From the NCBI RefSeq assembly GCF_000263195.1, contig NC_018749.1:1-64000 (forward strand): 64,000 bases of DNA, in the 5' to 3' direction. The stretch's first letter is position 1, and each line of letters starts with the position of its first letter. The notes under the pieces are model-generated. The model made no database searches, was not told where the DNA came from, and saw only the letters and a program-made list of their open reading frames with translations. This document shows positions 25,746 through 43,568 of this stretch, piece by piece. This stretch comes from Emticicia oligotrophica DSM 17448. GTDB taxonomy: Bacteria; Bacteroidota; Bacteroidia; Cytophagales; Spirosomataceae. The position numbers and the translations under genes are program-made.

Positions 25746-25815
25746 TTTAGTATAGGTAAAATTAGCATTTGTATAATTATATTGTTGTTTTTACGCTTTT
25801 AATCTAAATTCAATT
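25746..25815 (+). promoter_or_regulatory. putative LytTR-controlled promoter, copy 1
   Basis: tttagtataggtaaaattag then catttgtataattatattgttg is nearly identical to 32294-32341. Two GTATARxT half-sites (25750-25757 and 25771-25778) lie 21 bp apart. A TTG at 25782 and TAAATTCA at 25805 fit the Bacteroidota -33/-7 pattern (TTG, TAnnTTTG) with a 20-bp spacer. It precedes the DUF6734-VKOR-precursor operon by ~110 bp. Confidence 0.6.
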
Positions 25816-25924
25816 CAAAACAAACAGTCAATTGATATAACAGAGCTTTTATTAAGTATTAAATTACTAAAGAAGTTTTTTTACTGAATAACAACCTTAT
25901 CTTCATTAATATGATTAGCGTAAA

Positions 25925-27556
25925 ATGAAAATAATTCAAACGTTGTATGCTAATAATAATTTAACTCCTATTTCAAATAGGTTTGGTTGGCTTAGACCTG
26001 AATTTCATTTAATGAGTTGGGCTCTAAGTTGTTTACAAATTAAGAAATTTCATAAAGAAGTTCATTTATATGCAAATACTTCTGGAGCAGATTTACTTGT
26101 AAATCAACTCAAATTACCCTATGACTCTGTCAATATCTCACATGATGACTTGGTATTAGCGAATGAAAATTTATGGGCTTTACCAAAAATATTTACATAT
26201 TCATTACAAAAAGAACCTTTTTTGCATATTGATGGAGATGTCTTCCTTTTTGAAGCTTTACCCAAAAAACTTTTAAGAAATAGTTTAATTGCACAAAATA
26301 TTGAAAAGGCTACAAAATTTTATCAAACAACTCAAAGTGAGTTAATGTCAAATTTTGAATATTTCCCCGATTGTGTCAGAAAAGACTTATACAGTGAAAA
26401 ACCAATCAATGCAGTCAATGCTGGCATTTTAGGTGGTCAAAATTTTCTTTTTTTTCAGAAATATACAAAATTAGCATTTTCATACATAGATAATAATGTG
26501 GATTATTTGTCAAAAATAAATGTAAACAAGTTCAATGTTTTTTTTGAACAACATTTATTTTATTCATTAGCAGTTCAGGAGAAAATCCCAATCAGTGTTT
26601 TGTTCAATGAAAAAATTAATGATAATGAGTACGAAGGTTTCGGAAATTTCCATGAAGTGCCATTCAAAAAACATTATTTGCACCTTTTAGGAACTTATAA
26701 AAGCCATCTCCATACATGTATACAAATGGCGAATAAACTTCGACAGTTATACCCTAATTATTATTACCAAATTATTGCATTATGCAAACAAAATGACATT
26801 CAGCTTTTAACCAACTTTTATGCTGAAAATAATTTATTGACATTGCCAGATTACCAAAAACTCCATAAAAGAGCTAAGAGTATCTATAAAAAATCTAAGT
26901 TTTTAACTAAAAACAGGCAAAAAAGTAAACATATAGAAGTATTTGAAGAGTTATACAATATTGAAAAAATCATAACATTAAAGAATATTATAAATCAGAT
27001 TGATTACACAGATAAGCCATTTACAAAAAATGAATTAGAAGCTGATTTTCAACTATTCGCTGAAAATATTGCAGTAACTTTAAAGAGATATATACCTAAT
27101 GAGTTATTATATGGTAGAGATATAGAAGCAACAAACTGGTATTCTTTAATATTTGAACATGAGGAAAATATTAAAGAAGTTCAAATTATCAAGTGCAATG
27201 AGCCTACGATTATTACTTCTGATTACGATTGGGCAACTATCTTGAACAAGTTTTTGCTATCAAATATAAGAATAAGGTATTACGAATCTTTTGAAATTTC
27301 AAAAGGCAATTTTAATAGCTTGATAGTTCCCGAAGTCTACACTGAAAAGTTTTCTTTATATGATTTGGAAGATATAGACGTGATAATTTTACAAATTTTG
27401 ACAAAACCAATGCCAATTAAAGATTTATTCATTGAAATACAAGAATATTTTGACGCTGATGTTATCGAGAACTATGCTCAAAAAGTATTCGATTTTTTAA
27501 TTGTTTTGCTAAAGCAATTGGTTCTGAAAAAGGCAATAATGCCTGTAAATCTATAA
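25925..27556 (+). CDS. DUF6734 family protein (glycosyltransferase-like)
   Basis: A 543-residue protein. The N-terminal ~260 residues match DUF6734: MKIIQTLYANNNLTPISNRF, FHLMSWALSCLQIKKF, LWALPKIFTYSLQKEPFLHI, and a DxD-like HIDGDVFLFEAL near 102-113, as in nucleotide-sugar glycosyltransferases. The C-terminal ~200 residues are an additional region with no family I know (residues 340-543, ending in a helical YAQKVFDFLIVLLKQLVLK segment). It is the first gene of transcript 1, 30 bp before the first VKOR fusion. It might glycosylate the peptide or act as a leader-binding partner; both are speculation. Confidence 0.65.
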   Translation: MKIIQTLYANNNLTPISNRFGWLRPEFHLMSWALSCLQIKKFHKEVHLYANTSGADLLVNQLKLPYDSVNISHDDLVLANENLWALPKIFTYSLQKEPFLHIDGDVFLFEALPKKLLRNSLIAQNIEKATKFYQTTQSELMSNFEYFPDCVRKDLYSEKPINAVNAGILGGQNFLFFQKYTKLAFSYIDNNVDYLSKINVNKFNVFFEQHLFYSLAVQEKIPISVLFNEKINDNEYEGFGNFHEVPFKKHYLHLLGTYKSHLHTCIQMANKLRQLYPNYYYQIIALCKQNDIQLLTNFYAENNLLTLPDYQKLHKRAKSIYKKSKFLTKNRQKSKHIEVFEELYNIEKIITLKNIINQIDYTDKPFTKNELEADFQLFAENIAVTLKRYIPNELLYGRDIEATNWYSLIFEHEENIKEVQIIKCNEPTIITSDYDWATILNKFLLSNIRIRYYESFEISKGNFNSLIVPEVYTEKFSLYDLEDIDVIILQILTKPMPIKDLFIEIQEYFDADVIENYAQKVFDFLIVLLKQLVLKKAIMPVNL

Positions 27557-27586
27557 TTCACCTTTGACAAATAAAAAACTAAACTT

Positions 27587-29200
27587 ATGGCTTACTCTTT
27601 CAATACAGAATTAAAATCAATTGCTGCAAAATACATAGAATTATTGCATGGAAAAGTTACAGTTGGTACGATAAAAAAGGACATTGAAGAAAACCCCTAC
27701 TATCCAAGTCTGTTGGCATTAAGTGATACTTTTGGTAGGTATAATATTACAAATGAGGCGTTTAAAGTTCCGTCTAAAGATTTTGATAAACTCGCAACAG
27801 ATACGCCATTCGTAGCTTTTACGAAAATACCTAATATTGGAACTGACTTTGTGTTAGTAACTAAAATTTCTGAACAAGCGATAAGTTATTTTCATAAAAA
27901 TAGAAAAGTTGAAACAGTTCCAAAAGAAATTTTTTTAGAGGGATATAAAGATGTTATATGGAAAGCACAACTAAACGAACAAAGTGGTGATGCTGATTAT
28001 GAAAGAAAGTATAGAGTTGAAAAAAATGAACAAAACAAAAAAATAGCATGGATTTTTACTACCATAGTAGGCTTTTTGTTAATTGTTGGGGCAAATATTA
28101 GCCATGAAAATACTTTTTCGATAGTCAGTATTACATTTTTGAAAATTATTGGTATTATCACTTCATGTTTACTACTTGCTTATGAAGTAGATAAAAACAA
28201 TCCGTTTGTCAAAAATATTTGCTCCATAGGTGGACAATCAAATTGTGATGCGGTTTTGAGTAGTAAAGCTGCAAAAATAGGTGGTATCAGTTGGGGAGAA
28301 ATCGGTTTTTTCTATTTTATTGCAACTACTTTGGGGCTATTAATACCTAATTTATCATATGAAATAAAAGCAACATGTGTGACTGTGGCCAATATTTTTG
28401 CAGTACCTTATATTTTCTTTAGTATCTATTATCAGTGGCGTGTAATAAAACAATGGTGCCCTTTATGTTTAACTATTCAGTTTGTATTAGCTTCCGAATT
28501 GATTTGGAGTGTCTTTACGGTTTGGCAATATCCTTTCATAAATATTTTGCAACTCCCAATATTACTCACCATACTATTTTGTGTATTAATACCTGTCATT
28601 TCGTGGTATGCTTTAAAATCTATTATAACTAAAGCCAAAGACCATGATTTATATTTATCTGCCTATAAAAGATTACAATATAATCCTGATATTTTTAAAA
28701 GTTTACTTCAACAACAAGCACAAGTACCTGATGGTTGGCAAGACTTAGGTATTGATATTGGCAACCCTTATGCACAAAACACAATCATAAAAATATGTAA
28801 CCCTTATTGTGGACCTTGTCAAAAGAGCCATGTAGAATTGGGACATATCATAAAAGAAAATAAAAACATTAAAGTGAAAATAATTTATATGGCTAGAAAT
28901 AATGAATTTGATAAAGGCCGTTTTGTGGTCAAACATTTGTTAGCAATTGCAAAAAAAGGTGATTTAAATATAACACATTTGGCTCTTGATGATTGGTATT
29001 TAAATGCTGAAAAAGATTACGATTTATTTGCCAATAAATATCCAATAGGTGGGGATAGTTTAAAAAAACAAGAAAAAGAGTTAGACACCATGAGTCAATG
29101 GTGTGACATTACAGATGTTACCTATACACCAACGATATTCGTTAATGGTTTTAGATTACCTGAAAACTATAAGACTGAAGAACTAAAATATATTTTATAA
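27587..29200 (+). CDS. C39-like/VKOR/thioredoxin fusion, copy 1
   Basis: A 537-residue membrane oxidoreductase. Residues 1-~125 form a C39-peptidase-like domain (ENPYYPSLLALSDTFGRYN) without catalytic Cys or His. Five or so membrane segments follow (~150-335) with VKOR cysteines in NICSIGGQSNCDAVLSS and the active-site CxxC in QWCPLCLTIQF. The C-terminal DsbA-like thioredoxin domain has CNPYCGPCQKSH near 405 and a cis-Pro segment TYTPTIFVNG. VKOR passes electrons to quinones and re-oxidises the thioredoxin domain, which introduces disulfides outside the membrane. A gene for a six-Cys GG peptide follows 74 bp later. The dead C39 domain may bind the GG leader (inference). Confidence 0.88.
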   Translation: MAYSFNTELKSIAAKYIELLHGKVTVGTIKKDIEENPYYPSLLALSDTFGRYNITNEAFKVPSKDFDKLATDTPFVAFTKIPNIGTDFVLVTKISEQAISYFHKNRKVETVPKEIFLEGYKDVIWKAQLNEQSGDADYERKYRVEKNEQNKKIAWIFTTIVGFLLIVGANISHENTFSIVSITFLKIIGIITSCLLLAYEVDKNNPFVKNICSIGGQSNCDAVLSSKAAKIGGISWGEIGFFYFIATTLGLLIPNLSYEIKATCVTVANIFAVPYIFFSIYYQWRVIKQWCPLCLTIQFVLASELIWSVFTVWQYPFINILQLPILLTILFCVLIPVISWYALKSIITKAKDHDLYLSAYKRLQYNPDIFKSLLQQQAQVPDGWQDLGIDIGNPYAQNTIIKICNPYCGPCQKSHVELGHIIKENKNIKVKIIYMARNNEFDKGRFVVKHLLAIAKKGDLNITHLALDDWYLNAEKDYDLFANKYPIGGDSLKKQEKELDTMSQWCDITDVTYTPTIFVNGFRLPENYKTEELKYIL

Positions 29201-29274: not shown

Positions 29275-29466
29275 ATGAAAATGAATTTTGAAGATATCAC
29301 TGGTGTTTTAAACCGTGATGAAATGAAAAAAATTATGGCTGGTTCGGGGACCTCTTGTTCAACAAAATGTACGCCTCGAAATGCTACAGGTCCAATCGGT
29401 TGTTATCCATCTAATGGAACATCTGGCACCTGTAGATGTTTAGATGCTGATAAAAGTTGTTCCTAA
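29275..29466 (+). CDS. GG-leader cysteine-rich peptide precursor 1
   Basis: A 63-residue precursor. The leader MKMNFEDITGVLNRDEMKKI contains the NRDEMKKI form of the LSREQMKxI motif shared by the other four precursors and ends in MAGSG rather than the plain GG of the others. The core has six Cys with spacing C-x3-C-x10-C-x9-C-x1-C-x6-C and is rich in Gly, Thr and Pro. It is flanked by a VKOR fusion and a TlpA oxidoreductase, so the core is probably disulfide-bonded; thioethers are possible, but the only dehydratase here is truncated. Cleavage is presumably by the C39-ABC exporter at 37.8-40 kb, in a different transcript. Confidence 0.8.
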   Translation: MKMNFEDITGVLNRDEMKKIMAGSGTSCSTKCTPRNATGPIGCYPSNGTSGTCRCLDADKSCS

Positions 29467-29552: not shown

Positions 29553-30665
29553 ATGAATGCTAAATTTTGTTGTCTCCTTTTTGTGGTACTACTATCAATT
29601 CGCTTTGAGGTAAACGCTCAAAAGAAATTTACTTTAAAACTACAATTCTCTAAATATATTGATAATACGAGTATTCAAGTAAAATATGATAATGGAAGAG
29701 ATGAAATTAACATTCACCCTGTTATAAAAAATAATTCTATCGTAATAACCGATATCTTTTATTCTAAATATGCTACAATATTAATTAGTTACTCATATGG
29801 AAACTATAACTACAATAATAGTTTTTGGGTCTCTAATAAACCTGCGACAATCAATTTTTTGAATAACTCAAAGGATGAACCATTCAAAAAATACAAATTA
29901 ACAAATGCATATGATATTAAATATATGGGAGAAGAAAAATTCTCAAAGTTTATGGCTGTTGAAGATAAGGATTTTTTTGATTTTATTACTAAAAATGGAG
30001 CTAATATGAATGATTCATTAGTTCAAATTGCTTTCAAAAAAGGGGCAATACGTAGTAAAAGAAAATTAGAATTTGTAAAAGAAAATGGCTATTTATATTA
30101 TGCATTTTGGCTTTTTAGAAAAGAAGTTGCATTTTGTGATACAAGCATAACTACTTTGATGGATGTGTATGATAAAACTTTTTCTAATAGTTTCAAAAAA
30201 AGTATTGAGGGAACTGAAATAACAAAAATATTAAATGGAAGAGCTTTAAAAAAGGATTCTCAAGCTCCAACCTTCATAACTAAGGACGTAACAGGCAAAA
30301 TTATATCATTAGATAACTATAAGAATAAGTTTGTATTACTCACTTTTTGGGCTTCTTGGTGCGGTCCTTGTGTGGAAGAAATGCCTGCCATTAATGCAAT
30401 GAGAGAAAATTATTCTTTGGATAAATTTGAAATTATTTCTGTTACACTTGATGATGATTTGACAAAGTTCAAAGAGGCTGCTGTGAAATATAATATGAAT
30501 TGGAAACATATTTTTGGTGATAAAGATTTAGTTAAGAAATATGGAGTTATTGGTATCCCAGAGATATATTTGATTGATAAATCAGGTAAAATAATTTATA
30601 AAAGAGAAGAAGAAAAGGATTACAAATTGGAATATTTGACCAAATTAGTAGCCGAAAAACTTTAG
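29553..30665 (+). CDS. TlpA-like thiol-disulfide oxidoreductase 1
   Basis: A 370-residue exported protein: signal peptide MNAKFCCLLFVVLLSIRF...NAQ, a ~200-residue N-terminal domain (FTLKLQFSKYIDNTSIQVKY), and a C-terminal AhpC/TlpA thioredoxin fold from about 240 with LTFWASWCGPCVEEMPAI (CxxC = CGPC) and cis-Pro in YGVIGIPEIYLID. Its N-terminal domain resembles that of the TlpA gene at 34.6 kb, so the two are paralogues. It would shuffle or reduce wrong disulfides of the neighbouring Cys-rich peptide (inference). Gap to the precursor gene 86 bp. Confidence 0.88.
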   Translation: MNAKFCCLLFVVLLSIRFEVNAQKKFTLKLQFSKYIDNTSIQVKYDNGRDEINIHPVIKNNSIVITDIFYSKYATILISYSYGNYNYNNSFWVSNKPATINFLNNSKDEPFKKYKLTNAYDIKYMGEEKFSKFMAVEDKDFFDFITKNGANMNDSLVQIAFKKGAIRSKRKLEFVKENGYLYYAFWLFRKEVAFCDTSITTLMDVYDKTFSNSFKKSIEGTEITKILNGRALKKDSQAPTFITKDVTGKIISLDNYKNKFVLLTFWASWCGPCVEEMPAINAMRENYSLDKFEIISVTLDDDLTKFKEAAVKYNMNWKHIFGDKDLVKKYGVIGIPEIYLIDKSGKIIYKREEEKDYKLEYLTKLVAEKL

Positions 30666-30673
30666 AAAATGCT

Positions 30674-31196
30674 GATTCTCGACTCCATATGGAAAACTAT
30701 TCCTTGGAGGAAGTTTAAAACAAGCAACTGTTAATGTTAAAAAAAATGATGATGATACTGAAATTATAGTTAAAATTGCTCTTATTGAAATATCAGTTCC
30801 TGATTTAGTAGATATGTCTGAGATTGTGGTAAACAACGGCGTTGATAATGGAAATAAGGGAGAAGGTATTTCTGAGAAGTTTGTGATTAATGATGATGCT
30901 AAAGAATTAACAATATCAGAGGAGGTTATTCCAACAGAAGTGTTTGAATTAAGTAATTATCCTAATCCAATAGAAAGTAATGCCACAACAGTTACAATAA
31001 AATTACTAAAAACAGAAGAAATTGAAGTTGAACTGTGTAATTATGATGGTAAAGTTTTAAAGGTGAAGTTAAAAAAGAAGAGGTGTTAGAATTTCAAATT
31101 AGAACGGATAAGGTATCTAATGGTATTGGATATATAAGATTGATTACTGTTAAAAAAAATATTGGTGGGTCAAATATTAATCAAAAGATAGTATGA
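30674..31196 (+). pseudogene. remnant of a secreted protein with a T9SS-type C-terminal domain
   Basis: No start codon. The frame STPYGKLFLGGSLKQATVNV leads to FELSNYPNPIESNATTVTIK, the YPNP entry of type IX secretion sorting domains, then stops early at 31089. A one-base shift in an A run (ttaaaaaagaagagg near 31070) restores the rest of the domain (EEVLEFQIRTDKV ... GIGYIRLITVKK ... NQKIV). Hence a truncated and frameshifted leftover between the two peptide cassettes. Confidence 0.55.
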
Positions 31197-31269
31197 AAAA
31201 CCATCTGTTTTTTTTCTAATGTATTTCAGTAATATTGGTTTTACAAAAAAATATTACTGAATTTCAGTG

Positions 31270-31906
31270 AGGGAGTGTTAAAAGTATTCCTCTAACTGAT
31301 TTTTTTAATAACAGTAATAATAGTGGAAAAATAACTTCCTACATTTCAATTCTTCTTTCTCATAGAATCCAGAAATCTAATTTATATTTAGAAACAGGGG
31401 TAAGATTTAATTTTAAAAATTTCAAATTTCAGCAGAATTTAGATACCCTTTCTTATTTCGGAACAATATATTCTCAGCCTAAGTACAGAATTATTTCAGT
31501 AACTTTATTATTTAGTTTTCATAAAAAAATAGATGTGAATTTTAGCCCTATTTCTGAAAAGAAAAGCATAATTATTCTTGCAAGGGTCTATCGTTTGATT
31601 TTGTAAAGGAATTTTCGATAAGAAATTGAATTGACAGGAAAAGAATTTAGTATTAAAACAATTTTTAAAGATAACTTTTCATTTCAATCAAATACTGGCG
31701 TTTCGTTTAATAGTATAGTCTCATATTCTATTTTAAAATTCCAAAACAACAAATATCTTTATTTACTAGGGAGTTATAAATATCCATTTTATAATCAAAA
31801 TGGGATAGATTTAAATTATGATATAAATGGAAATATTAATAAGTATGAAATCAACAAGGTAAAATTCCAAGAAATTTCATTGGGATTTCGGTTACGTTCT
31901 TTTTGA
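31270..31906 (+). pseudogene. beta-barrel-like outer membrane protein remnant
   Basis: Two consecutive frames without proper starts. The first (31270-31605) gives KITSYISILLSHRIQKSNLY, then LETGVRFNFKNFKF and YRIISVTLLFSFHKKI. The second (31631-31906) gives VSFNSIVSYSILKF, KYLYLLGSYKYPF and a final EISLGFRLRSF with terminal Phe. The alternating pattern and terminal aromatic suggest the end of an outer-membrane barrel broken by stops. Family not identified. Confidence 0.4.
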
Positions 31907-31919
31907 GAAACTTCATTTT

Positions 31920-32117
31920 TTATTCGCTGATATAGTTTTTATCGTTAAACTGATTTAAAACCGTAATGAAACTATCAGCGGAAGTGTCAATTGCTTTTAA
32001 AACAAAAATAGGATTCCATGTATGCTTAATCCAATGATTTAGTACAAAAAAGCCTACGTAAAAACTTACTAATGCAAGCGGTATGAGCAAATCTACTAGC
32101 TCTGTTAACCGTCGATA
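31920..32117 (-). pseudogene. fragment of an unidentified membrane protein
   Basis: The minus strand reads RRLTELVDLLIPLALVSFYV then GFFVLNHWIKHTWNPIFVLK and ends DKNYISE-stop. It has one clear membrane segment but no start codon. Family not recognised; part of the junk between the two peptide transcripts. Confidence 0.35.
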
Positions 32118-32293
32118 TCAATACAGAATCTAAGAAAGTAACTCAAATTTGCAAAGAAGGGCTCGAAAAAAATCACTTTTACACTTGAAAATATGTCTTG
32201 CCATGACAATCATTAAAAAAATAGATTTTATTTGTTTGTTCACTTATTCATTTGTCAAAGTTATACTCCCGTCTATTTTTATCAAAAAACCGA

Positions 32294-32361
32294 TTTAGTA
32301 TAGGTAAAATCAGCATTTATATAGTTTTATTGTTGCTTTAACAATTTTAATACAACTTTTG
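32294..32361 (+). promoter_or_regulatory. putative LytTR-controlled promoter, copy 2
   Basis: tttagtataggtaaaatcag then catttatatagttttattgttg matches 25746-25793 with about six differences in 48 bp. Half-sites GTATAGGT (32298-32305) and ATATAGTT (32319-32326) keep the 21-bp spacing. TTG at 32330 and AACTTTTG at 32354 fit a -33/-7 pair. The VKOR fusion copy 2 starts 40 bp on. Confidence 0.62.
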
Positions 32362-34051: not shown

Positions 34052-34240
34052 ATGAAAAAAATGATTTTAAACTTTGGAAGTTCACTGCTCTCTAGAGACC
34101 AGATGAAGAAAATAAAGGGTGGAAATGATTCAGCAGATGATGCACCGAATAACTGCCGTTCAAATTGTAATAACAATGAGGATTGTGCGAGTGGGGGACC
34201 AAATGGCTGCATCATGTGTGCAAGTTTTAAATGTGTGTAG
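34052..34240 (+). CDS. GG-leader cysteine-rich peptide precursor 2
   Basis: A 62-residue precursor: leader MKKMILNFGSSLLSRDQMKK then IKGG, the classical double-glycine site for C39 exporters; the core starts NDSADDAPNN. Six Cys with spacing C-x3-C-x5-C-x7-C-x2-C-x4-C, the same C-x3-C ... C-x(1-2)-C-x(4-6)-C frame as precursors 1 and 3. Few Ser/Thr stand near Cys, which favours disulfides over lanthionines. It lies between VKOR fusion 2 and precursor 3. Confidence 0.85.
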   Translation: MKKMILNFGSSLLSRDQMKKIKGGNDSADDAPNNCRSNCNNNEDCASGGPNGCIMCASFKCV

Positions 34241-34323: not shown

Positions 34324-34512
34324 ATGAAAAACACAAAACTATTCAATTTTACGTCTAAACTTAGTCGTGATGAAATGAAAAAAATTGCAGGTGGTACTGA
34401 AGATGGAAGTGTTGAAGGCAATCCAACTTGTGGAATTGCATGCAGTGGAGGGTGCAGACCATCAAGTGACGGTTGTTCAAAATGTGGTAGTAACGGACTC
34501 TGTCAATCATAA
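34324..34512 (+). CDS. GG-leader cysteine-rich peptide precursor 3
   Basis: A 62-residue precursor: leader MKNTKLFNFTSKLSRDEMKK then IAGG; core TEDGSVEGNPTCG onwards. Six Cys with spacing C-x3-C-x3-C-x6-C-x2-C-x5-C, and Gly/Ser-rich loops. Close relative of precursor 2, 83 bp upstream, and of precursor 1 in the other transcript. A TlpA gene follows after 111 bp. Confidence 0.85.
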   Translation: MKNTKLFNFTSKLSRDEMKKIAGGTEDGSVEGNPTCGIACSGGCRPSSDGCSKCGSNGLCQS

Positions 34513-34623: not shown

Positions 34624-35751
34624 ATGAAAAATATATTAAAATATTTACTTCTTATCTTTTTCCCATTAAGTATTCAAGCACAAAAGCCTTTCTTAGTAAG
34701 AATACAATTTCCCAAAAATATTAATGTTGAAAACATAAGAATTGGTTACGAAAATGGTAATGAAAGGATAAGTTTTCCAACAAAGTTTATTGACAATAAA
34801 ATTACTGTGTCGGGGACCTATTATTCCAAATATCTAACGCTTTGGATTTACGACGATTTAAAGGATAGTTATGTAAATTGGACTTATTTTTGGATAGATG
34901 GGTCAAAAGCTTCTATTTCGTTTACAACGACAGATACTTCCCAAAATATTTTGAAAAAATTTATTCTAAAAAATGCTTTTAGTCTTGACATCGTTGGAAA
35001 AAAACATAATTCTTTTGTAAGAACAGAATTAGAACAATATAAGAACTTTTATGAGAAATACTTCAGTCCAAATTATAAAGGGAAGTACACAGATTCTTTG
35101 AATAAAGTTTTTAATGGCATATTCTTAAACCTTTGTCTGAAAGATATCTCGTTTATAAAAGCAAATGGAAATCAATATTATGCTTTTGATTATTTCAGAA
35201 GAAACCTTGCACCACTCAGAGAAATAAACCCCGATACTTTATTGTCAATTTTCAATACTTCATTCCCAAAATCATATAAAGAGAGTTTTGAGGGAAAAGA
35301 GACAGAAATTTTTTTAAAAGGTAAAGTTTTGAAGAAGAATGCAATCGCTCCTATAATCAAAGCTGCTGATTACTACTCAAAAGAAGAATTATCGCTCATA
35401 AATAAAAAATATACACTATTAGTTTTTTGGGCTTCTTGGTGCAAGCCTTGCATAGCCGAAATTCCTAAGATTAAAGAATTACATAAATTTTATCAGACTG
35501 ATAACTTAAAAATAATTTATGTAACGCTTGATGAAGACTCAACAAAGTTTTTGCAAGCGGTAAAGAAGTATGATTTAAGTTGGAATCATGTTTATGGAGA
35601 TAAAAAATTCATTAAGAGTTTTGGTGTGCTTGGTATTCCACAAATATTTCTTATTGATAGTTTAGGAAAAATAGCTTATTCAAGAGAGGAAGAGAAAGAC
35701 TTTAAGTCTGAATTACCAATTCTTGAAGCAATTTTAGAAGAAAAACTGTAA
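34624..35751 (+). CDS. TlpA-like thiol-disulfide oxidoreductase 2
   Basis: A 375-residue exported thioredoxin-fold protein: signal peptide MKNILKYLLLIFFPLSIQAQ, N-terminal domain starting FLVRIQFPKNINVENIRIGY, and thioredoxin domain with LVFWASWCKPCIAEIPKI near 270 (CKPC) and cis-Pro in FGVLGIPQIFLID. Its N-terminal domain aligns along its length with the TlpA at 29.55 kb (for example YENGNERIS vs YDNGRDEIN). Likely proofreading or reducing partner of the VKOR oxidase (inference). Confidence 0.88.
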   Translation: MKNILKYLLLIFFPLSIQAQKPFLVRIQFPKNINVENIRIGYENGNERISFPTKFIDNKITVSGTYYSKYLTLWIYDDLKDSYVNWTYFWIDGSKASISFTTTDTSQNILKKFILKNAFSLDIVGKKHNSFVRTELEQYKNFYEKYFSPNYKGKYTDSLNKVFNGIFLNLCLKDISFIKANGNQYYAFDYFRRNLAPLREINPDTLLSIFNTSFPKSYKESFEGKETEIFLKGKVLKKNAIAPIIKAADYYSKEELSLINKKYTLLVFWASWCKPCIAEIPKIKELHKFYQTDNLKIIYVTLDEDSTKFLQAVKKYDLSWNHVYGDKKFIKSFGVLGIPQIFLIDSLGKIAYSREEEKDFKSELPILEAILEEKL

Positions 35752-35822: not shown

Positions 35823-36047
35823 ATGAAAAAAATGATTTCGAGTTTTGGTAATGCTGTTCTTTCGAGAGAACAAATGAAGGGTATAAAAGGTGGGGTAAAA
35901 TGTGCAGGTACATGGATTAATGCCAATGGCGATGAGCTTTCTGTTCAAGAGAATTGTTCTGGGTATTCAGTCCAAACTTGTATCGACCGTCTAAATGCAA
36001 GGGTTGGGCATGGACAAGCGGATAGTTATTCATGTGATATTGTCTGA
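35823..36047 (+). CDS. GG-leader cysteine-rich peptide precursor 4
   Basis: A 74-residue precursor: leader MKKMISSFGNAVLSREQMKG then IKGG; core VKCAGTWINANGDELSV onwards with four Cys. The pattern NCSGYSVQTCIDR resembles TCSGSVSQCTGSR of precursor 5, so 4 and 5 form a second subfamily with larger cores (50-57 aa). The even Cys count allows two disulfides. It lies between two TlpA genes. Confidence 0.83.
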   Translation: MKKMISSFGNAVLSREQMKGIKGGVKCAGTWINANGDELSVQENCSGYSVQTCIDRLNARVGHGQADSYSCDIV

Positions 36048-36280: not shown

Positions 36281-37669
36281 ATGAAATTTGGCTTGTATTT
36301 CTATCTAATATTCGGTTATTTAAACTTATCCTATGCTCAAAATGCTTATGTAAAGGGTAATTGCCAAACAAAGGAAACTTTATATATTTCAATTCAAAAT
36401 GAAATAGGAGTTGATATGTCAAAAGAATTATCTTTTAACTACACACAAAACAAATACGAAACAGTTACACTTCCTATAGGTGAGCAGCCTCAATTACTTT
36501 ATATTTCAGCCTCAAGCAAGGACAAAATAAATTTTTATCAAGCAATAATATTTCCAAATGATACTATTGAAATATATAAAAATGATGAAGGATTTATTGA
36601 ATATTTGGGTAAAAACAAAGCAGAATATATGTTTTTATTCAACCTTGAAGAAATGGGATTAGGTATTTATAATACACCTGAAAATAAATGTAAAGGATGT
36701 CCGAAGTATTATGAGGAATTATTAGAAAAAAGGAATAAAATGCTTAAAAAGTTTAGTGACTCATTGAGTTTTAGACCCCAATTCAATGAATTTGTTAAAA
36801 AGTATTTTTATCTAAAACATATTTGGGGTTGGTTGCAATTATATAGCTTTGTTAGTAAAGAAACGAAAGATTACAACCTAGATAAGCAATATTTAGATAG
36901 TTTAAAATCATTTAAAAAGTATTTATCATTAGCACCCATTGAAATTAAAAAACTATATTATATAAGCTATGCTAATACTTTAAAAACCTACAACCGTTTT
37001 CTGACTGAAAATGACTACAAACAAGCCCCACCCTTTGAAAAACAATTTGAATCAGGTATTAAAAATTTTGATGGGTACAACAGAGATTTACTACTAACAC
37101 GGCTCTTAAAAGATGCGTTAAAAAAAAATGAAGTTAAACCAGAACATATTACTAAATTTTTAGAAATATGCAAAACAACAGAGTATATAGACTATATAAA
37201 TGATATTCTAAAAAAGAGGATTAAAAATACATCCGATATAACTGATTCAAGCAAAGTTTTTTATCAAAATAAAAATCAATTTTCTTGGAGAGATTTGATA
37301 GATAAGTATAAAAATAAAGTTACTTATATTGATTTTTGGGCTTCATGGTGTGCACCTTGTCGTTTAGAAATTGAAAATTCAAGAAAAATAGAAAAAGAAT
37401 ATATAAAACGAGGAATTAACTTTGTTTATATTTCTATTGATGATAAATATGATTCTTGGATAAATGCAAAAAAACAGTTAAATCTTCAAGAAAAAGATAA
37501 TTTTTTATTCTCAACTATTTCAGAATCTACTATTTCAAAACAATTGGACTTAATATCAATTCCAAGGTATATTATTATTGGCAAAAATGGAAAGATTGTT
37601 AATTCTGATGCCCCGCGTCCATCTGATTTAAAAATTAAAAAAGAATTTGATGATATTTTAAAACAATAA
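36281..37669 (+). CDS. TlpA-like thiol-disulfide oxidoreductase 3
   Basis: A 462-residue exported protein. I start it at 36281 (MKFGLYFYLIFGYLNLSYAQ), a clean signal peptide; the 38 extra codons upstream lie in a poorly conserved spacer. A long N-terminal region (~residues 20-320) of unknown fold includes NKCKGCPKYYEELLE. The C-terminal thioredoxin domain has YIDFWASWCAPCRLEIENS (CAPC) near 355 and cis-Pro in LISIPRYIIIG. It differs from TlpA 1 and 2 in its N-terminal domain. Third redox partner in transcript 2, 131 bp before the exporter gene. Confidence 0.85.
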   Translation: MKFGLYFYLIFGYLNLSYAQNAYVKGNCQTKETLYISIQNEIGVDMSKELSFNYTQNKYETVTLPIGEQPQLLYISASSKDKINFYQAIIFPNDTIEIYKNDEGFIEYLGKNKAEYMFLFNLEEMGLGIYNTPENKCKGCPKYYEELLEKRNKMLKKFSDSLSFRPQFNEFVKKYFYLKHIWGWLQLYSFVSKETKDYNLDKQYLDSLKSFKKYLSLAPIEIKKLYYISYANTLKTYNRFLTENDYKQAPPFEKQFESGIKNFDGYNRDLLLTRLLKDALKKNEVKPEHITKFLEICKTTEYIDYINDILKKRIKNTSDITDSSKVFYQNKNQFSWRDLIDKYKNKVTYIDFWASWCAPCRLEIENSRKIEKEYIKRGINFVYISIDDKYDSWINAKKQLNLQEKDNFLFSTISESTISKQLDLISIPRYIIIGKNGKIVNSDAPRPSDLKIKKEFDDILKQ

Positions 37670-37800: not shown

Positions 37801-40005
37801 ATGTCCAAATTTTATCACTACCAACAACATGATGCGATGGATTGCGGCCCTACCTGCCTACGCATGGTAGCAAAGCATTATGGGCGAGTGTTTTCGATAC
37901 AAAAACTACGTGAGGCAACCCAAATAGGCAAAGAGGGGGTCTCTTTATTGGGCATTAGTGAAGCTGCTGAGAGCATTGGTTTCAAAACTTTGGCAGTAAA
38001 AGCACCTTTCAAACAATTAGAAAAAGATGCTCCACTTCCGTGCATTGTTCATTGGAAACAAAACCATTTTGTGGTAGTCTATCAAATAAAAAAGAATCAA
38101 GTTTATGTAGCAGACCCTGCAATTGGTCTTATAAAATACTCTTATACTGAATTTGAAAGCCAGTGGGCAACTACGATAATTGAAGGCGAAAAAACAGGCA
38201 TTGCACTACTTTTAGAGCCAACTCAAAGATTTTACCAAGAAACTGACGAGCAAACAAAGGGTATTAACCTAAGTATGTTATCGGGCTACGTTTTTAAGTA
38301 CAAACGTCTTATTTTACAACTTTTCTTGGGGCTTTTTATTGGTTCAATTTTGCAACTTATTCTGCCATTTCTTACACAATCGGTGGTAGATACAGGCATA
38401 CAAACCCGCAATTTGCATTTTATTTATTTGGTTTTGGCAGCTCAATTGATGCTGTTTATTGGCAGAATGTCGGTAGAGTTTATCCGTAGCTGGATATTGC
38501 TTCATATCAGTACACGAATCAACCTGAGTATCTTATCAGATTTTTTGGGTAAGCTCTTGCGTTTGCCTGTTTCTTTTTTTGAATCAAAAAAAACTGGTGA
38601 TATTCTCCAACGAATCGGCGACCACCAACGTATTGAGTCGTTCCTTACGGGAACATCGCTTAATGTACTTTTTTCGATGTTCAATCTCATCATCTTTAGC
38701 GTAGTTTTAGCATATTATAATCTTACTATCTTTGGCGTTTTCTTAATAAGTAGCATTGTTTATAGTATTTGGATAGTACTTTTTCTTCGTTATCGCCGAA
38801 AATTAGATAATAAACGCTTTGCTTTGGCAAGTCAAAATCAAAGTTCTTTGATACAGCTTGTGCAGTCTGTTCCTGAACTAAAACTCAATAATGCTGAAAT
38901 AAAAAAACGTTGGGAGTGGGAGAATCTCCAAGTAAAAAACTTTCATTTGAGCGTCAAGGGGCTTGCTTTGCAACAATACCAGCAAACGGGAGCAATGATT
39001 ATCAACGAGGGTAAAAATATTGTCATTTCGTTTTTGGCTGCCACTGAGGTTGTTAATGGACAAATGACTTTAGGGGCAATGATGGCACTCCAATATATCA
39101 TTGGGCAGCTCAATAGCCCTGTCGAGCAACTCATTCAGTTTATGCAACACTACCAAGATGCTCAAATAAGTCTAGAAAGATTGAATGAAATCCATGAAAT
39201 TGATGATGAAGAAACCACACAAAAGCCATTGTTGCATATTTTGCCTGAAAATCAGGATATTCAACTCAAAAACCTCACGTTTACTTATACAGGTGCAGGC
39301 AATGACCCTGTATTGAAAAATATTAATTTAACAATTCCACAAGGAAAAATAACGGCCATTGTTGGCACAAGTGGAAGCGGCAAAACTACACTATTAAAGT
39401 TATTACTAAAGTTTTATAAACCCCAAAGTGGAGAAATTCGCTTAGGTAATGTTTCGCTCGAAAATATCAGCCACAAACTTTGGCGTAGCAAATGTGGAAC
39501 GGTCATGCAAGAAGGGGTTATTTTCTCAGATACTATTGCTGAGAATATTGCTTTCAGCGATGAATTTCCAGACACCAAAAAACTGCTTCATGCAGTAAAA
39601 GTGGCTAATATTCAATCGTTTATTGAAGAATTGCCATTAAGTTATAATACCAAAATTGGTGCAGAAGGAAATGGAATTTCACAAGGGCAAAAGCAAAGAA
39701 TGCTAATTGCCAGAGCGGTTTACAAAAATCCTGATTTTATATTTTTCGATGAAGCTACCAATGCACTTGATGCCAATAACGAAAGCGTTATCATGACAAA
39801 TTTAGAAGAATTCTTTAAAAGCGGTTCGACGGGTCGAAGAACGGTAATTGTAGTAGCTCACCGACTAAGCACAGTAAAAAATGCCGACCAAATTGTAGTG
39901 ATGGAAAAAGGAGAAATTGTTGAAGTGGGAACTCATGCCCAACTCACGCAAAGACATGGAAAATATTTTGAATTAGTGAAAAATCAGTTAGAATTAGGGA
40001 ATTAA
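37801..40005 (+). CDS. peptidase-containing ABC transporter (C39-TM-ATPase)
   Basis: A 734-residue bacteriocin exporter; I use the ATG at 37801 (MSKFYHYQQHDAMDCGPTCL). The C39 domain has catalytic Cys in DCGPTC, His in NHFVVVY near 95 and Asp in VADPA near 110. Six membrane helices span ~150-460. The ATPase shows Walker A IVGTSGSGKTTLLKLL near 520, signature ISQGQKQRMLIARA and Walker B DFIFFDEATNALD. It cuts GG leaders and exports the cores, so it serves all five precursors here. The stop overlaps the HlyD start by one base (translational coupling). Confidence 0.95.
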   Translation: MSKFYHYQQHDAMDCGPTCLRMVAKHYGRVFSIQKLREATQIGKEGVSLLGISEAAESIGFKTLAVKAPFKQLEKDAPLPCIVHWKQNHFVVVYQIKKNQVYVADPAIGLIKYSYTEFESQWATTIIEGEKTGIALLLEPTQRFYQETDEQTKGINLSMLSGYVFKYKRLILQLFLGLFIGSILQLILPFLTQSVVDTGIQTRNLHFIYLVLAAQLMLFIGRMSVEFIRSWILLHISTRINLSILSDFLGKLLRLPVSFFESKKTGDILQRIGDHQRIESFLTGTSLNVLFSMFNLIIFSVVLAYYNLTIFGVFLISSIVYSIWIVLFLRYRRKLDNKRFALASQNQSSLIQLVQSVPELKLNNAEIKKRWEWENLQVKNFHLSVKGLALQQYQQTGAMIINEGKNIVISFLAATEVVNGQMTLGAMMALQYIIGQLNSPVEQLIQFMQHYQDAQISLERLNEIHEIDDEETTQKPLLHILPENQDIQLKNLTFTYTGAGNDPVLKNINLTIPQGKITAIVGTSGSGKTTLLKLLLKFYKPQSGEIRLGNVSLENISHKLWRSKCGTVMQEGVIFSDTIAENIAFSDEFPDTKKLLHAVKVANIQSFIEELPLSYNTKIGAEGNGISQGQKQRMLIARAVYKNPDFIFFDEATNALDANNESVIMTNLEEFFKSGSTGRRTVIVVAHRLSTVKNADQIVVMEKGEIVEVGTHAQLTQRHGKYFELVKNQLELGN

Positions 40006-41444
40006 TGAGCGAGGAATCAAATCATTCAGAGAAATTACTCCGAACAAATCTGATGGAATTGTTGGGTGGGAAAGGTATGGGAATAACTGATGATTTATTA
40101 AAACAAGAAATCATTGTACCTCCTACTATGCCTCCTGTCATCAACAATCATGGAAATAATGGCAATGATGGAAGAATGCCCGAACTACGAAGCAGCGAGG
40201 TAAATGAAGTTTTGAGCAAACCACCTGCGTGGCTTATTCGATGGGGAATTACCGTTTTTTTCTTTGTTTTGGTGCTTATGCTGGCAGTTACTTGGTTTAT
40301 TCGTTACCCTGATTTAGTTAGAGGCAATCTTAAAATCGTTTCACAAAATCTACCTAAATCTGTTATAGCAAAAACTGATGGAAAATTGGTAAAATTGTTG
40401 GCAATTGATGGTCAAATAGTGCAACAGGGGCAGAAAATAGCTTATTTAGAGAGTACGGCTAACCATGACGAAGTTTTAATTTTGAATGATTTAACTGATT
40501 CTTTGGTCAATATGACCGCTAATGATAACCTTTCTGCTGCTTATACAGCCGTGATTCCAACTTTTTTTCAATTAGGCGAACTACAAAAATCTTATCAAGT
40601 TTTTCAAGAAACATTTACCAGAGTTAAGTCTTTTGTTGGTAACGGTACTTATTTGCAAAAGAGAAAAATGCTCGAAAATGATTTTGCCCAACTAAATTCA
40701 TTGCAGTCAAATCTGAAAAATCAATTGCAGAATAATCAAAAAGATTTGGCACTAGCAGAAGATGAACTTGAAAGCCAAAAACGACTACAAGAAAAGGGAT
40801 ATGTATCAAAAAATGATTATCGTCAAGCCATGAGCAAAGTACTTAGCAAACAGCAAAGTAATGAGCAAATGCTCAGTTCGATGAAGAATAATGTAATGTC
40901 TCAAAATCAAAAACAACAAGAGATTTTAGAATTAGATAAGACTATTATTGAACAAAAAAATGCCCTCATTCAAGCCATGCACACGCTCAAAAGTGATATT
41001 GAAGCATGGAAACAACGCTACGTTGCTATTGCTCCAACGGCAGGAAAAGTGGTTTTATTAACATCACTACAAGAAAACCAGTTAGTAAAAACAGGACAAG
41101 AATTACTCTATGTTTTACCTAATGGAGAAGGGTACCACGGAGAAATGAATATCGGTCAATTTAATTTTGGTAAAGTAAAACGTGGGCAGGAAATTATAGT
41201 AAAGCTTCAAAGTTATCCTTATGAAGAGTATGGTACACTACGAGGGCAGATTCAAAGTATTTCCGAAATCCCAAAAGACTCGGCTTATTTTGTTAAAGTA
41301 AATTTCCCTAAAGGATTAATAACTTCAGCCTATAAAACTATCCCTTTTCGTAATGGGATGACCGCATCAGGTGAAATAATTACAGAAGATAAAAGGCTGA
41401 TAGAGAGGTTTTTTAAAGAATTTATCAGAATTTTTGAAAGGTGA
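40005..41444 (+). CDS. HlyD family membrane fusion protein
   Basis: A 479-residue adaptor linking the ABC exporter to an outer-membrane channel. One membrane segment at ~78-100 (ITVFFFVLVLMLAVTWFI), then a biotinyl/lipoyl half-motif GKLVKLLAIDGQIVQQGQKI near 128, a long coiled-coil hairpin (~200-325), the second half motif AGKVVLLTSLQENQLVKTGQ near 345 and a beta-barrel end. It has a longer N-terminal cytoplasmic stretch than typical HlyD. It shares one base with the transporter stop, so the two are made together. Confidence 0.93.
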   Translation: MSEESNHSEKLLRTNLMELLGGKGMGITDDLLKQEIIVPPTMPPVINNHGNNGNDGRMPELRSSEVNEVLSKPPAWLIRWGITVFFFVLVLMLAVTWFIRYPDLVRGNLKIVSQNLPKSVIAKTDGKLVKLLAIDGQIVQQGQKIAYLESTANHDEVLILNDLTDSLVNMTANDNLSAAYTAVIPTFFQLGELQKSYQVFQETFTRVKSFVGNGTYLQKRKMLENDFAQLNSLQSNLKNQLQNNQKDLALAEDELESQKRLQEKGYVSKNDYRQAMSKVLSKQQSNEQMLSSMKNNVMSQNQKQQEILELDKTIIEQKNALIQAMHTLKSDIEAWKQRYVAIAPTAGKVVLLTSLQENQLVKTGQELLYVLPNGEGYHGEMNIGQFNFGKVKRGQEIIVKLQSYPYEEYGTLRGQIQSISEIPKDSAYFVKVNFPKGLITSAYKTIPFRNGMTASGEIITEDKRLIERFFKEFIRIFER

Positions 41445-41510: not shown

Positions 41511-41756
41511 ATGAAGACAATGTTTCAACAATTTGCTGATGCTCGTCTAACGAGAGAACAAATGAAAGAGGTAAAAGGTGGTTCTACATATTGTAATGCA
41601 GTATGTGTAAATGATGATGGCGTCAAGTGGTATATGAGCGGAACTTGTTCAGGAAGTGTATCGCAATGTACTGGGTCAAGAGTTGCTGGAACAGGTGCTG
41701 CGTATGACGTAACCTGCGTTAATATTGATTGTTATATCAAAGCACCACAACAATAA
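41511..41756 (+). CDS. GG-leader cysteine-rich peptide precursor 5
   Basis: An 81-residue precursor: leader MKTMFQQFADARLTREQMKE then VKGG; core STYCNAVCVNDDGVKWYM onwards, 57 residues with six Cys. Related to precursor 4 by the CSGS-V-SQC-x3-R pattern. It lies 66 bp after the HlyD gene; the spacer (acaaactacggacttaagta) is again a distant copy of the direct repeat in front of precursors 2 and 4. Confidence 0.83.
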   Translation: MKTMFQQFADARLTREQMKEVKGGSTYCNAVCVNDDGVKWYMSGTCSGSVSQCTGSRVAGTGAAYDVTCVNIDCYIKAPQQ

Positions 41757-41845
41757 CTGAAATATTTAACTTTATCTTCAATCGAATAACATAATGATAA
41801 GATTCATTAAAGAAATTATCATTGCGTTATCTTTCTCAATGTAAT

Positions 41846-42211
41846 ATGAACTTAAAAATCTTTTATTTGATATTTATACTTCCAATCCAACTCTATTCTC
41901 AGGAAGAAATATATCTTTATCCCGAAAAACCTTCAGAATTTGTTTATGGAGAAGATTCAATTTTAATATACATTAAGCAAAACTTTTGTATATGTAATCA
42001 CTTTAATGAAATAAGGTCTGCAACAGTACAATTTGTAGTAGAACCCAATGGAGGTTACAGTAATTTAATATTTATATCAAAAATTAATGATGATTTAAAA
42101 GAAAAAATTAGAGTAGTTATTAATCAGCTACCATTATGGAAACCAGGTACCGTGAAAGATAAGCCTGTCAGAAGTTATAGGATATTGAATATTATTTGCA
42201 AAAATAAATAA
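41846..42211 (+). CDS. TonB C-terminal-like periplasmic protein
   Basis: A small exported protein of 121 residues, started at 41846 (MNLKIFYLIFILPIQLYSQ, signal peptide). The rest resembles a TonB C-terminal domain without membrane anchor: RSATVQFVVEPNGGYSNLIF, then NQLPLWKPGTVKDKPVRSYR, the usual W-x-PG-x5-PV motif. Two Cys lie in NFCICNHF and one near the end. Such stand-alone domains are frequent in Bacteroidota. Its role next to the exporter is unknown. Confidence 0.65.
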   Translation: MNLKIFYLIFILPIQLYSQEEIYLYPEKPSEFVYGEDSILIYIKQNFCICNHFNEIRSATVQFVVEPNGGYSNLIFISKINDDLKEKIRVVINQLPLWKPGTVKDKPVRSYRILNIICKNK

Positions 42212-42263
42212 AAAAAGAGTAGAAAATGAGGGATTTTCAATTTTATTAAAATAAATTATATAA

Positions 42264-43568
42264 ATGAGGCAGTTTGTTTTATTATTAATAATATTACCAA
42301 TTTCGCTTTTAGGGCAGACAAATATAAAGTTTAACCTTATTCAGTGCATTAACTACGCCTACAAACAAAATTTTGATGTAAAATTTAAAGAGTTAAGATT
42401 AAAACAATCTGAGAATACTTTGGAGCAGTCAGAAAAAGCTATTTATCCAAATCTTTCAGGTTCGTTTTCGCAGGGGATTAATTCAGGTAGGAGCATTGAC
42501 CCTTTCACCAACGGCTTCATTCAACGTACTATTTCTTCTAATTCGTTTGGTGCAAATGCTAACTTTACGATTTTCAATGGTTTTTCTCTCAAAAACCAAA
42601 TTATTCAAAACCAATACAATGCAGAAGCAGACCAAGTGGAAATTCAAAGGGCAAAAAATGAATTACGAATCCGAATCACACTTGCTTATATGCAGGTGCT
42701 GATGAACCAAGAATTATCAAAAATTGCCCAGGAACAAATTCAAAACATCCAATCACAATATGAACGAGTGAAGGCATTGGTCAACGAAGGAAATATGCCA
42801 AAAACCAATTTAATTGATTTAGATGCACAACTCATCACTGCCGAATATGATGCCCTAAATGCCAAAAACAATATTGATGTTTCAAAACTCTCATTGGCTC
42901 AATTGATGGCGTTTCCGAATTTTGTAGCTTTTGACATTGAAAATAATTCGATAGAAGAAAAAACAGTTCTCTTAAATGATAATTACTTGCAAAATATTCT
43001 TTCTGGGTTTTATTTTCAACCAATTATAAAAAGTGCAGAATTAAGAGTAAGAAGTGCCAATGTAGGCATAAAACTCGCCGAAGCAGGTAAATATCCAACT
43101 GTTTCTTTGGGTGCAGGAGTTGGTTCGGCGTATTCGAGTGCAGCAGCGAAAGAATATAATTATTTCAATCAATTAGGCTTTAATTTGAATCAATTTGCAC
43201 GTTTAAGTATAAATATTCCAATTTACACCAATGGGCAGGTTAAAGGACGAATTACAAATGCTCAAATCAATCAAAGAATTACTGAAACTCAGCTATCACA
43301 GACAAAACTTCAAATAAAGCAAGAAATTGAGCAGGCGTATCTGACTGCCAAAATTGCCCAAGAAAAGCTAAAGACTGCCCAAAAGCAAGTTTTAGCTCAA
43401 CAAGTTGCCTATGATTCTGCCAAAGACCGCTATTTGGAAGGTTTACTTCATACCATCGAGTTGAATAATTATCGGATAAATCACGAAAAAGCAAAATCAA
43501 ATTTGATTCAATCAAAATACGAGTTTTACTTTAGAAAAATAGTGTTGGATTACTATATTGTCAAGTGA
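42264..43568 (+). CDS. TolC family outer membrane efflux protein
   Basis: A 434-residue TolC-like channel: signal peptide MRQFVLLLIILPISLLGQT, two outer-membrane-efflux repeats (from about 25 and 240) dominated by long helices (QSENTLEQSEKAIYPNLSGS; KIAQEKLKTAQKQVLAQQVA), and typical NSGRSIDPFTNGF near 75. It completes the tripartite C39-ABC/HlyD/TolC route for peptide export across both membranes. Same strand, 52 bp after the TonB-like gene. Confidence 0.93.
   Translation: MRQFVLLLIILPISLLGQTNIKFNLIQCINYAYKQNFDVKFKELRLKQSENTLEQSEKAIYPNLSGSFSQGINSGRSIDPFTNGFIQRTISSNSFGANANFTIFNGFSLKNQIIQNQYNAEADQVEIQRAKNELRIRITLAYMQVLMNQELSKIAQEQIQNIQSQYERVKALVNEGNMPKTNLIDLDAQLITAEYDALNAKNNIDVSKLSLAQLMAFPNFVAFDIENNSIEEKTVLLNDNYLQNILSGFYFQPIIKSAELRVRSANVGIKLAEAGKYPTVSLGAGVGSAYSSAAAKEYNYFNQLGFNLNQFARLSINIPIYTNGQVKGRITNAQINQRITETQLSQTKLQIKQEIEQAYLTAKIAQEKLKTAQKQVLAQQVAYDSAKDRYLEGLLHTIELNNYRINHEKAKSNLIQSKYEFYFRKIVLDYYIVK

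Follow-up and report, generated by a model that had tools for sequence, protein, structure and literature searches.

A candidate leader-guided disulfide synthase in an export system for disulfide-rich peptides of Emticicia oligotrophica and other Bacteroidota

Where does a bacterium make the disulfide bonds of the peptides that it exports? The usual view is that they form outside the cytoplasm, through enzymes that take no account of the precursor's leader. The question is raised by a locus of Emticicia oligotrophica DSM 17448 that lies within positions 1 to 64,000 of contig NC_018749.1 (assembly GCF_000263195.1; this whole stretch is referred to as the window). Here five precursor peptides with 6, 6, 6, 4 and 6 cysteines, in gene order, are found among or beside two VKOR fusion proteins, three TlpA-like proteins and a C39-ABC/HlyD/TolC exporter, with a LytS/LytTR pair upstream of all of them. 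An earlier note on this DNA had described these fusions, TlpA proteins, exporter and regulators, all of which are borne out by the open reading frames (ORFs) and, the regulators apart, by Pfam, and had read them as a bacteriocin-like system whose main modification is oxidative folding. We propose a more specific reading, namely that the locus exports disulfide-rich peptides and encodes a dedicated disulfide synthase that is guided by their leaders, and we put the probability of this at roughly 0.6.

In the scheme that we envisage, a precursor would bind through its leader to the C39-like domain of a VKOR fusion, a domain that is catalytically dead; the thioredoxin domain of the fusion, in the cytoplasm, would hand a disulfide to the core cysteines and would then be re-oxidised by a cytoplasm-facing VKOR site, with the electrons passing to the membrane quinone. 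The oxidised precursor would go to the peptidase-containing ATP-binding cassette (ABC) transporter (PCAT), whose live C39 domain would cut after the GG, and the peptide, which may have an antibacterial role, would exit via PCAT/HlyD/TolC. The LytS/LytTR pair would turn on both transcripts of the window through a shared upstream element, and periplasmic TlpA proteins and a DUF6734 protein would contribute accessory steps. That the fusion is, in addition, an enzyme class new to the searched literature on ribosomally synthesised and post-translationally modified peptides (RiPPs), one in which the GG leader is recognised by a dead C39 domain and the peptide receives its disulfides in the reducing cytoplasm, before export, from an inside-out VKOR-thioredoxin unit, widespread in Bacteroidota and also present on plasmids, we regard as an even bet. 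If the scheme is true, disulfide formation would be a guided step like other RiPP modifications, and the fusion would show how a quinone-linked oxidase can act on a tethered substrate inside a reducing compartment. It would also open up a large set of disulfide-rich peptides, 110 precursors in 39 loci with up to 20 per locus.

Domains and predicted topology of the VKOR fusions

What kind of protein is the fusion? Both copies in the window had been described as VKOR-thioredoxin fusions, and while the VKOR and thioredoxin domains stand, the two-domain make-up does not, since each copy has a C39-like domain at its N-terminus as a third. Among 28 fusion members scanned, PF07884 was found in all and PF03412 in 16 at E ≤0.01 (best 1.5e-14). 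The 28 aligned members are diverse, with 21-38% identity to fusion 2 (74% for the paralogue in its own genome), and the relatives of fusion 2 named in the genome collection are from an Emticicia metagenome-assembled genome (MAG; 72%) and an Arcicella MAG (59%). When a profile of the fusion N-terminus was compared with one of the C39 domains from 33 PCATs nearby, the match had a probability of 98.3. A model of the N-terminal domain alone (predicted local distance difference test score, pLDDT, 66) was used for a Foldseek search, in which the first 26 solved matches were all C39 or C39-like, including PCAT1, HlyB, the LahT-leader complex 6mpz, ComA, the HlyB C39-like domain 3zua and another C39-like domain, 3b79. 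It is on Pfam, the PCAT profile comparison and Foldseek that the C39 assignment is based, and not on a profile search of solved structures. Weak C39 matches were also seen in open frames of about 1,016-1,029 aa (e.g., G010:C11, G040:C50, G098:C71, G048:C48 and G044:C79), which represent a different, unexplained protein.

The C39-like domain has, by sequence, lost the catalytic triad. In the 33 neighbouring PCATs the columns of the catalytic Cys, His and Asp are each filled in every sequence, while in 53 aligned fusions the Cys is present in one, the His in one and the Asp in six, with no fusion having two or three together and none, therefore, the full triad of a C39 peptidase. By these profile and model comparisons the fusion N-terminus is a C39-like domain without the catalytic triad, that is, a C39 fold of the HlyB type lacking the catalytic cysteine. 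The redox cysteines show the opposite trend: Cys 208, 216, 284 and 287 of the VKOR domain (the loop pair and CXXC which, together with PF07884, place it in the VKOR family) and Cys 401 and 404 of the thioredoxin domain are invariant in 53 of 53 fusions.

Could a dead C39-like domain hold a leader? In the LahT-leader structure, as PMC6363468 describes it, the hydrophobic leader residues -4, -7 and -12 lie in a groove about 20 Å from the cutting site, and the same paper credits dead C39-like domains with the ability to tether cargo. In the 110 precursors described below, position -12 is L, I or F and position -4 is I, V, M or L without exception. These two positions fit the LahT code, so the dead C39 domain could hold a precursor without cutting it; from its fold and its context we infer that it does.

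A domain that reads leaders would need to be where leaders are, and the predicted topology of the fusions agrees with this. For this analysis we used fusion ORFs of more than 490 aa (n = 53; 49 from loci L041-L120, one each from L004 and L005 and two from the window), of which L074 contributes two copies with identical loop sequences; the controls were 28 Bacteroidota VKOR loci that fusion 2 does not match at E 1e-5, 27 of them scorable, L096 having no scorable cysteine pattern. Fusions that are split or truncated, namely those of L078, L093, L094 and L095 and one split copy in L092, stayed outside the set. In these the fusion is represented by two neighbouring or overlapping frames (5819-7358 in L092), which were kept as separate pieces.

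The fusions have one transmembrane (TM) segment more than ordinary VKORs: the loop cysteines follow two such segments in 52/53 fusions and one in all 27 controls. A loop score based on lysine plus arginine was negative in 53/53 fusions (mean -5.3, range -8 to -2), which would place the cysteines in the cytoplasm, and positive in all 27 scorable controls (mean +3.9, range 1 to 8). When acidic residues were subtracted 49/53 fusions were still negative and none was positive, and 27/27 controls remained positive. Moreover, the 25 residues between the last TM segment (TM5) and the thioredoxin domain have a net positive charge in 51 of 53 fusions compared to 1 of 26 controls. The fusions thus have, by sequence, six TM segments with an inverted charge pattern, and the extra helix together with that inversion predicts a cytoplasmic location for all three domains, unlike the periplasmic active site and thioredoxin domain of other VKOR-DsbA proteins. 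Helix and charge agree with each other as well as with the needs of a leader-reading domain. With an oxidase of this predicted orientation, and with a C39-like domain attached to it, oxidation probably precedes export.

Precursors and exporters beside the fusions

If the fusion is dedicated to exported peptides, it should be found with them elsewhere. VKOR was found in 93 of 395 sampled Bacteroidota genomes. Of the 80 stretches that we fetched, 79 were VKOR regions and one, L097, was a PCAT region; the VKOR regions were those with open frames of at least 500 aa plus some shorter ones, a sample outside which most stand-alone VKORs of 140-190 aa fall. The fusion is present in 51 of the 80. A PCAT scoring at least 400 bits is present in 36 of the 51 but in 0 of the 28 control loci, and HlyD at 100 bits or more in 33 and 0, respectively. 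In a wider set of 54 loci (the 51 plus L004, L005 and the window), the same-strand neighbour clusters include PCAT in 37, HlyD in 31, TlpA in 18 and a TPR regulator in 12. The arrangement of fusion, peptide and exporter therefore occurs, as judged from these gene neighbourhoods, in many related bacteria.

Within Emticicia 4 of 11 genomes, E. oligotrophica itself included, have a match. Six plasmid records also match the fusion, five of them over at least 80% of its length. The four that we inspected, from Spirosoma oryzicola, Hymenobacter monticola, Aureibacter tunicatorum and Parabacteroides distasonis, each have a peptidase-domain ABC transporter downstream of a fusion annotated as "vitamin K epoxide reductase family protein". 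In the Hymenobacter and Spirosoma plasmids (L167 and L165) annotated transposase or recombinase genes flank the fusion operon, which is consistent with movement between strains. No plasmid closely matches the window DNA itself.

A leader profile that took no account of cysteine, and that was trained on the same fusion loci in which it was counted, found 131 peptides in the 54 loci, 110 on the strand of the fusion and 21 on the opposite strand. With the window included, 39 of 54 loci have at least one precursor on the fusion strand, and in 26 of these 39 a precursor starts within 150 nt of the fusion stop codon. The failure of VKOR fusions and GG precursors to co-occur elsewhere had been named in the earlier note as a result that would speak against it, and these loci show that they do. 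The 53 fusion loci other than the window gave the profile 127 matches, whereas 512 kb around control VKORs and 961 kb of reversed DNA gave none, which argues that the gene set is not due to chance.

The cysteine content of these peptides is what a dedicated disulfide enzyme predicts: an even number in 105 of the 110 same-strand peptides, and no same-strand peptide without cysteine (2 Cys in 4 peptides, 3 in 1, 4 in 30, 5 in 2, 6 in 59, 7 in 2 and 8 in 12). These peptides are not independent, as L060 alone contributes 20 and L063 17; after clustering of similar cores, 75 of 78 have even numbers, and in 34 of 39 loci all do. In L060 and L063 the 20 and 17 different precursors surround one fusion and one PCAT, and all have even numbers except for a single 5-Cys peptide in each. 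Twenty PCAT loci without VKOR yielded 10 same-strand leader matches, 7 with an even, non-zero number, which are too few and too unlike for a comparison of cysteines. In the window the leader ends in GG, as had been claimed for all five precursors, in four of them (cores of 38, 38, 50 and 57 aa), while that of precursor 1 ends in AG and is missed by the profile; the stated 4 or 6 cysteines hold for all five.

All 21 opposite-strand peptides are free of cysteine. They have short Gly/Asn/Lys-rich tails and occur, up to five per locus, in L052, L066, L074, L083, L085, L087, L088, L090, L091 and L092, and all ten loci have the TPR regulator (12/54 overall); the peptides are possibly secreted signals that it senses.

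Alternative readings and known systems

Is it necessary to suppose that the disulfides are made before export? The fusion could instead be periplasmic like other VKOR-DsbA fusions and oxidise peptides as they leave the PCAT, with its C39-like domain docking the enzyme to the exporter and the TlpA proteins acting as isomerases or reductases. The strong association with PCATs would suit such folding after export, as would TlpA-like proteins with apparent signal peptides in the operon and TlpA-like genes in a third of loci (18/54), and a VKOR-DsbA fusion of clostridial origin is functional in the periplasm of E. coli, according to PMC12453122. We nevertheless find it doubtful, because the inverted charge (53/53) and the extra TM segment (52/53) are contrary to it, and because with six TM segments a periplasmic thioredoxin domain would put the C39-like domain in the periplasm too, away from leaders that are cut in the cytoplasm. 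What, then, of a glycocin-like system, in which the peptides are both disulfide-bonded and glycosylated, the DUF6734 protein is the glycosyltransferase and oxidation is secondary? A DUF6734 gene does head the first operon, glycosyltransferase-like or DUF6734 genes are present in 11 of 54 loci, the window included, and the Spirosoma and Parabacteroides plasmid loci each have two annotated glycosyltransferase-type genes in the same gene run. By the query set used, though, the other 43 loci have none, DUF6734 occurs in only one other locus (L071), and in L052, L066, L082, L083, L085, L087, L088, L090 and L091 the same-strand genes of at least 100 aa listed near the fusion are the TPR regulator, fusion, PCAT and HlyD only, all of which makes this account unlikely.

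Highly improbable, in our view, is that the loci make lanthipeptides or radical-SAM RiPPs, i.e., that peptides with even cysteine numbers and similar-looking leaders are modified in some other way and the VKOR fusions serve another purpose. Four of the five window leaders do match TIGR04149 (13.4-21.4 bits, cut-off 25) and NF047798 (18.1-21.7, cut-off 23.5), three match NF038153 more weakly (11.6-14.8 bits, cut-off 22), and there is a LanC-like gene in the Parabacteroides plasmid locus and another in L073. Yet the five window precursors reach the cut-off of no NCBIfam family, and neither for the TIGR04149 radical-SAM nor for the NF038153 class I lanthipeptide group does the window hold a leader above the cut-off with its cognate enzyme, no LanB, LanC or radical-SAM family being found by Pfam in the ten window proteins scanned. 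Even parity is to be expected of disulfides rather than thioethers, and the six redox cysteines are invariant in the fusions.

Several observations weigh against a leader-guided, cytoplasmic synthase and must be set beside those in its favor. Taken alone, fusion 1 matches C39 weakly (PF03412 0.027, under the cut-off), and a search of solved structures with the 28-row alignment returned no C39 chain at E ≤0.01, although it matched VKOR (4nv6, 6wv9) and DsbA-like chains. The HlyB C39-like domain binds its cargo on the face opposite to that used by ComA (PMC8277102), so a GG leader is not a necessary ligand of a dead C39 domain. At leader position -7, which is hydrophobic in LahT, Gln is the commonest residue (57/110; M or L in 50, K or A in 3), while all five window precursors have M. 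No PCAT of at least 400 bits is present in 15 of the 51 fetched stretches, six of these 15 being shorter than 16 kb, and no precursor was detected in 15 of 54 loci. As regards topology, the positive-inside rule predicts on statistical grounds, and G+C is higher in the control loci than in the fusion loci (median 0.63 vs. 0.37), but the four controls below 0.5 still score +1 to +8 and the sole fusion above 0.5 scores -5. A full-length AlphaFold model of fusion 2 from a four-row alignment was poor (pLDDT 57, predicted template modelling score 0.37, membrane unplaced), and of this model only the helix count was used. Finally, the apparent signal peptides of the TlpA proteins point to an additional redox step beyond the cytoplasm.

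What do the TlpA and DUF6734 proteins contribute to a synthase of this kind? The TlpA proteins are best considered accessory since they are present in 18 of 54 loci, and they may correct or reduce exported peptides. Of the initial view of dedicated oxidases and TlpA proofreaders, peptide export through a GG leader with dedicated disulfide oxidases is supported, while proofreading as a core feature is not. DUF6734 and glycosyltransferase-like genes may add a second modification. The window DUF6734 protein has matches in 10 of 198 genomes of the phylum, its own included; three of the ten are weak and confined to residues 335-417, and the one of these three that was inspected is a CysN-like protein. 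A PqqD-like leader-binding domain, suspected by eye at its C-terminus, was dropped as no Pfam family exceeded the cut-off in the four C-terminal parts scanned. In L151 a DUF6734 relative (763-2361, - strand) lies near a gene that is LanC-like by eye (3146 onward, + strand), an arrangement suggesting that DUF6734 may occur in other peptide-modification contexts too.

How does this system compare with those already described? Its nearest relatives among peptides are the bacteroidetocins, which PMC6671954 presents as GG-leader peptides of Bacteroidota. They carry 4 Cys, their reduced and non-reduced forms differ in migration, and they come with a dedicated thiol oxidoreductase, a protein of five TM segments and a C39 ABC exporter. 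The window system shares with them the GG leader, a C39 ABC exporter and a cysteine-containing core, about 42 aa long in the bacteroidetocins and 38, 38, 50 and 57 aa in the four GG precursors here. The earlier note, made without a search, knew of no Bacteroidota system of such composition, a claim that was thus too strong, and the general idea of cysteine-rich GG-leader peptides with a dedicated thiol oxidoreductase is not new. By its description, however, the bacteroidetocin region has four genes, one peptide and no regulator, whereas the window oxidase is a single three-domain fusion with a predicted cytoplasmic site; the words "VKOR", "thioredoxin" and "C39" are absent from the main text of that paper by word search. 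The clostridial and Synechococcus fusions of VKOR with DsbA or thioredoxin (PMC12453122; 4nv6) are similar in pairing a four-redox-Cys VKOR with a thioredoxin-fold domain, but the clostridial one acts in the periplasm of E. coli, and the Bacteroidota control VKORs lack the extra TM segment and have the opposite charge. The HlyB C39-like domain likewise keeps a C39 fold but lacks the catalytic Cys (3zua and 7sgr are among the fold matches of the fusion domain), and it tethers export cargo (PMC6363468, PMC8277102); there it sits in an ABC exporter and binds RTX cargo, while here it is fused to an oxidase beside an exporter that retains its own C39 triad.

A search of open-licence PubMed Central for literature joining VKOR with leader, bacteriocin or RiPP gave no paper with the VKOR term among those listed, a scope that subscription papers or other wordings could escape, and a VKOR phylogeny paper (PMC4555120) lacks the words C39, peptidase, Bacteroidetes and fusion by word search. 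Within that literature a three-domain, leader-reading VKOR fusion with a predicted inside-out topology appears to be undescribed.

Glycocins such as sublancin also combine a GG leader, disulfides and a PCAT with dedicated oxidoreductases and a glycosyltransferase, but their oxidoreductases act outside the cytoplasm, and a glycosyltransferase is not general in the fusion loci. The VKOR of Aeropyrum pernix is reportedly active in two compartments, which would be a precedent for a VKOR serving the cytoplasm; it is archaeal, and we know of no peptide-biosynthesis context for it.

Gene order and upstream element in the window

The ORF list and Pfam place the gene set as given in Table 1, with Pfam support for nine of the ten window proteins scanned, the exception being the 129-aa protein, which looks TonB-C-like by eye. 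The first operon is headed by the DUF6734 protein, which had gone unmentioned before, and the solved structure closest to the window PCAT is PCAT1 (4ry2, E 2.2e-117). The LytS/LytTR pair, named from sequence only, lies outside 25746-43568.

Table 1. Features of the two operons and their upstream region in the window
Feature	Position	Strand	Evidence
LytS-type sensor histidine kinase, 369 aa	23665..24774	+	ORF; name from sequence
LytTR response regulator, 248 aa	24779..25525	+	ORF; name from sequence
Operon 1 upstream element	25746..25787	+	42-bp match common to 32294; core pattern at 3 genome sites, control 0
DUF6734 protein, 543 aa, possible glycosyltransferase by eye	25925..27556	+	PF20508 E 7.7e-104, residues 1-285
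Fusion 1, C39-like/VKOR/thioredoxin, 537 aa	27587..29200	+	PF07884 5.8e-17, PF13462 9.4e-06; PF03412 0.027 (under cut-off)
Precursor 1, 6 Cys, leader end AG	29275..29466	+	ORF, Cys count
TlpA-like protein 1, CGPC, signal peptide by eye	29553..30665	+	PF08534 5.9e-20
Operon 2 upstream element	32294..32335	+	closely similar 42-bp match; core pattern
Fusion 2, C39-like/VKOR/thioredoxin, 538 aa	32401..34017	+	PF07884 3.1e-14, PF13462 2.8e-09, PF03412 3.3e-07
GG precursor 2, 6 Cys	34052..34240	+	ORF, leader profile
GG precursor 3, 6 Cys	34324..34512	+	ORF, leader profile
TlpA-like protein 2, CKPC, signal peptide by eye	34624..35751	+	PF13905 6.3e-17
GG precursor 4, 4 Cys	35823..36047	+	ORF, leader profile
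TlpA-like protein 3, CAPC, signal peptide by eye	36284..37669 (start codon chosen; ORF opens 36167)	+	PF13905 2.6e-14
PCAT (C39-peptidase ABC exporter)	37801..40005 (start codon chosen; ORF opens 37786)	+	PF03412 3.4e-41
HlyD-type adaptor	40005..41444	+	PF13437 2.1e-11
GG precursor 5, 6 Cys	41511..41756	+	ORF, leader profile
Small secreted protein, 129 aa	41822..42211	+	ORF; no Pfam family above cut-off
TolC-like outer membrane factor	42264..43568	+	PF02321 5.5e-48

Are the two operons of the window controlled together? The 42-bp elements ahead of them are closely similar, and a related element precedes the third VKOR operon of the genome, on contig C1. The 5.2-Mb genome was searched for the pattern GTATAGGTAAAATNNNNNTTTNTATANT at a tolerance of two mismatches, and exactly three sites were found, each of them free of mismatches: one upstream of 25925, one upstream of 32401 and one upstream of the third VKOR operon; the same pattern written backward has 0 sites in this genome. 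Its presence before three VKOR operons only supports, at the level of sequence, the two transcripts suggested previously for the window and one small regulon. Scans for promoter and terminator consensus sequences gave about as many hits as shuffled DNA (100 vs. 95.6 and 8 vs. 7.7). The third operon (L064) has precursors, PCAT, HlyD and TolC and is preceded by a LytS/LytTR pair of its own (6976-8836), homologous to that of the window, and this locus also holds a 447-aa protein of the TlpA cluster. A LytTR cluster is present in 4 of 54 loci, and in the window we infer that the LytTR regulator binds the shared element.

Between operons 1 and 2 (30666-32290, about 30.67-32.29 kb) there are short reading frames only, one of which resembles a C-terminal sorting domain by eye, and the stretch may represent gene remains. 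Directly after the TolC gene, at 43594-45095 on the + strand, lies a Kiwa anti-phage pair, KwaA (PADLOC 3e-64) and KwaB (PADLOC 5.1e-116, Pfam KwaB 4.9e-40).

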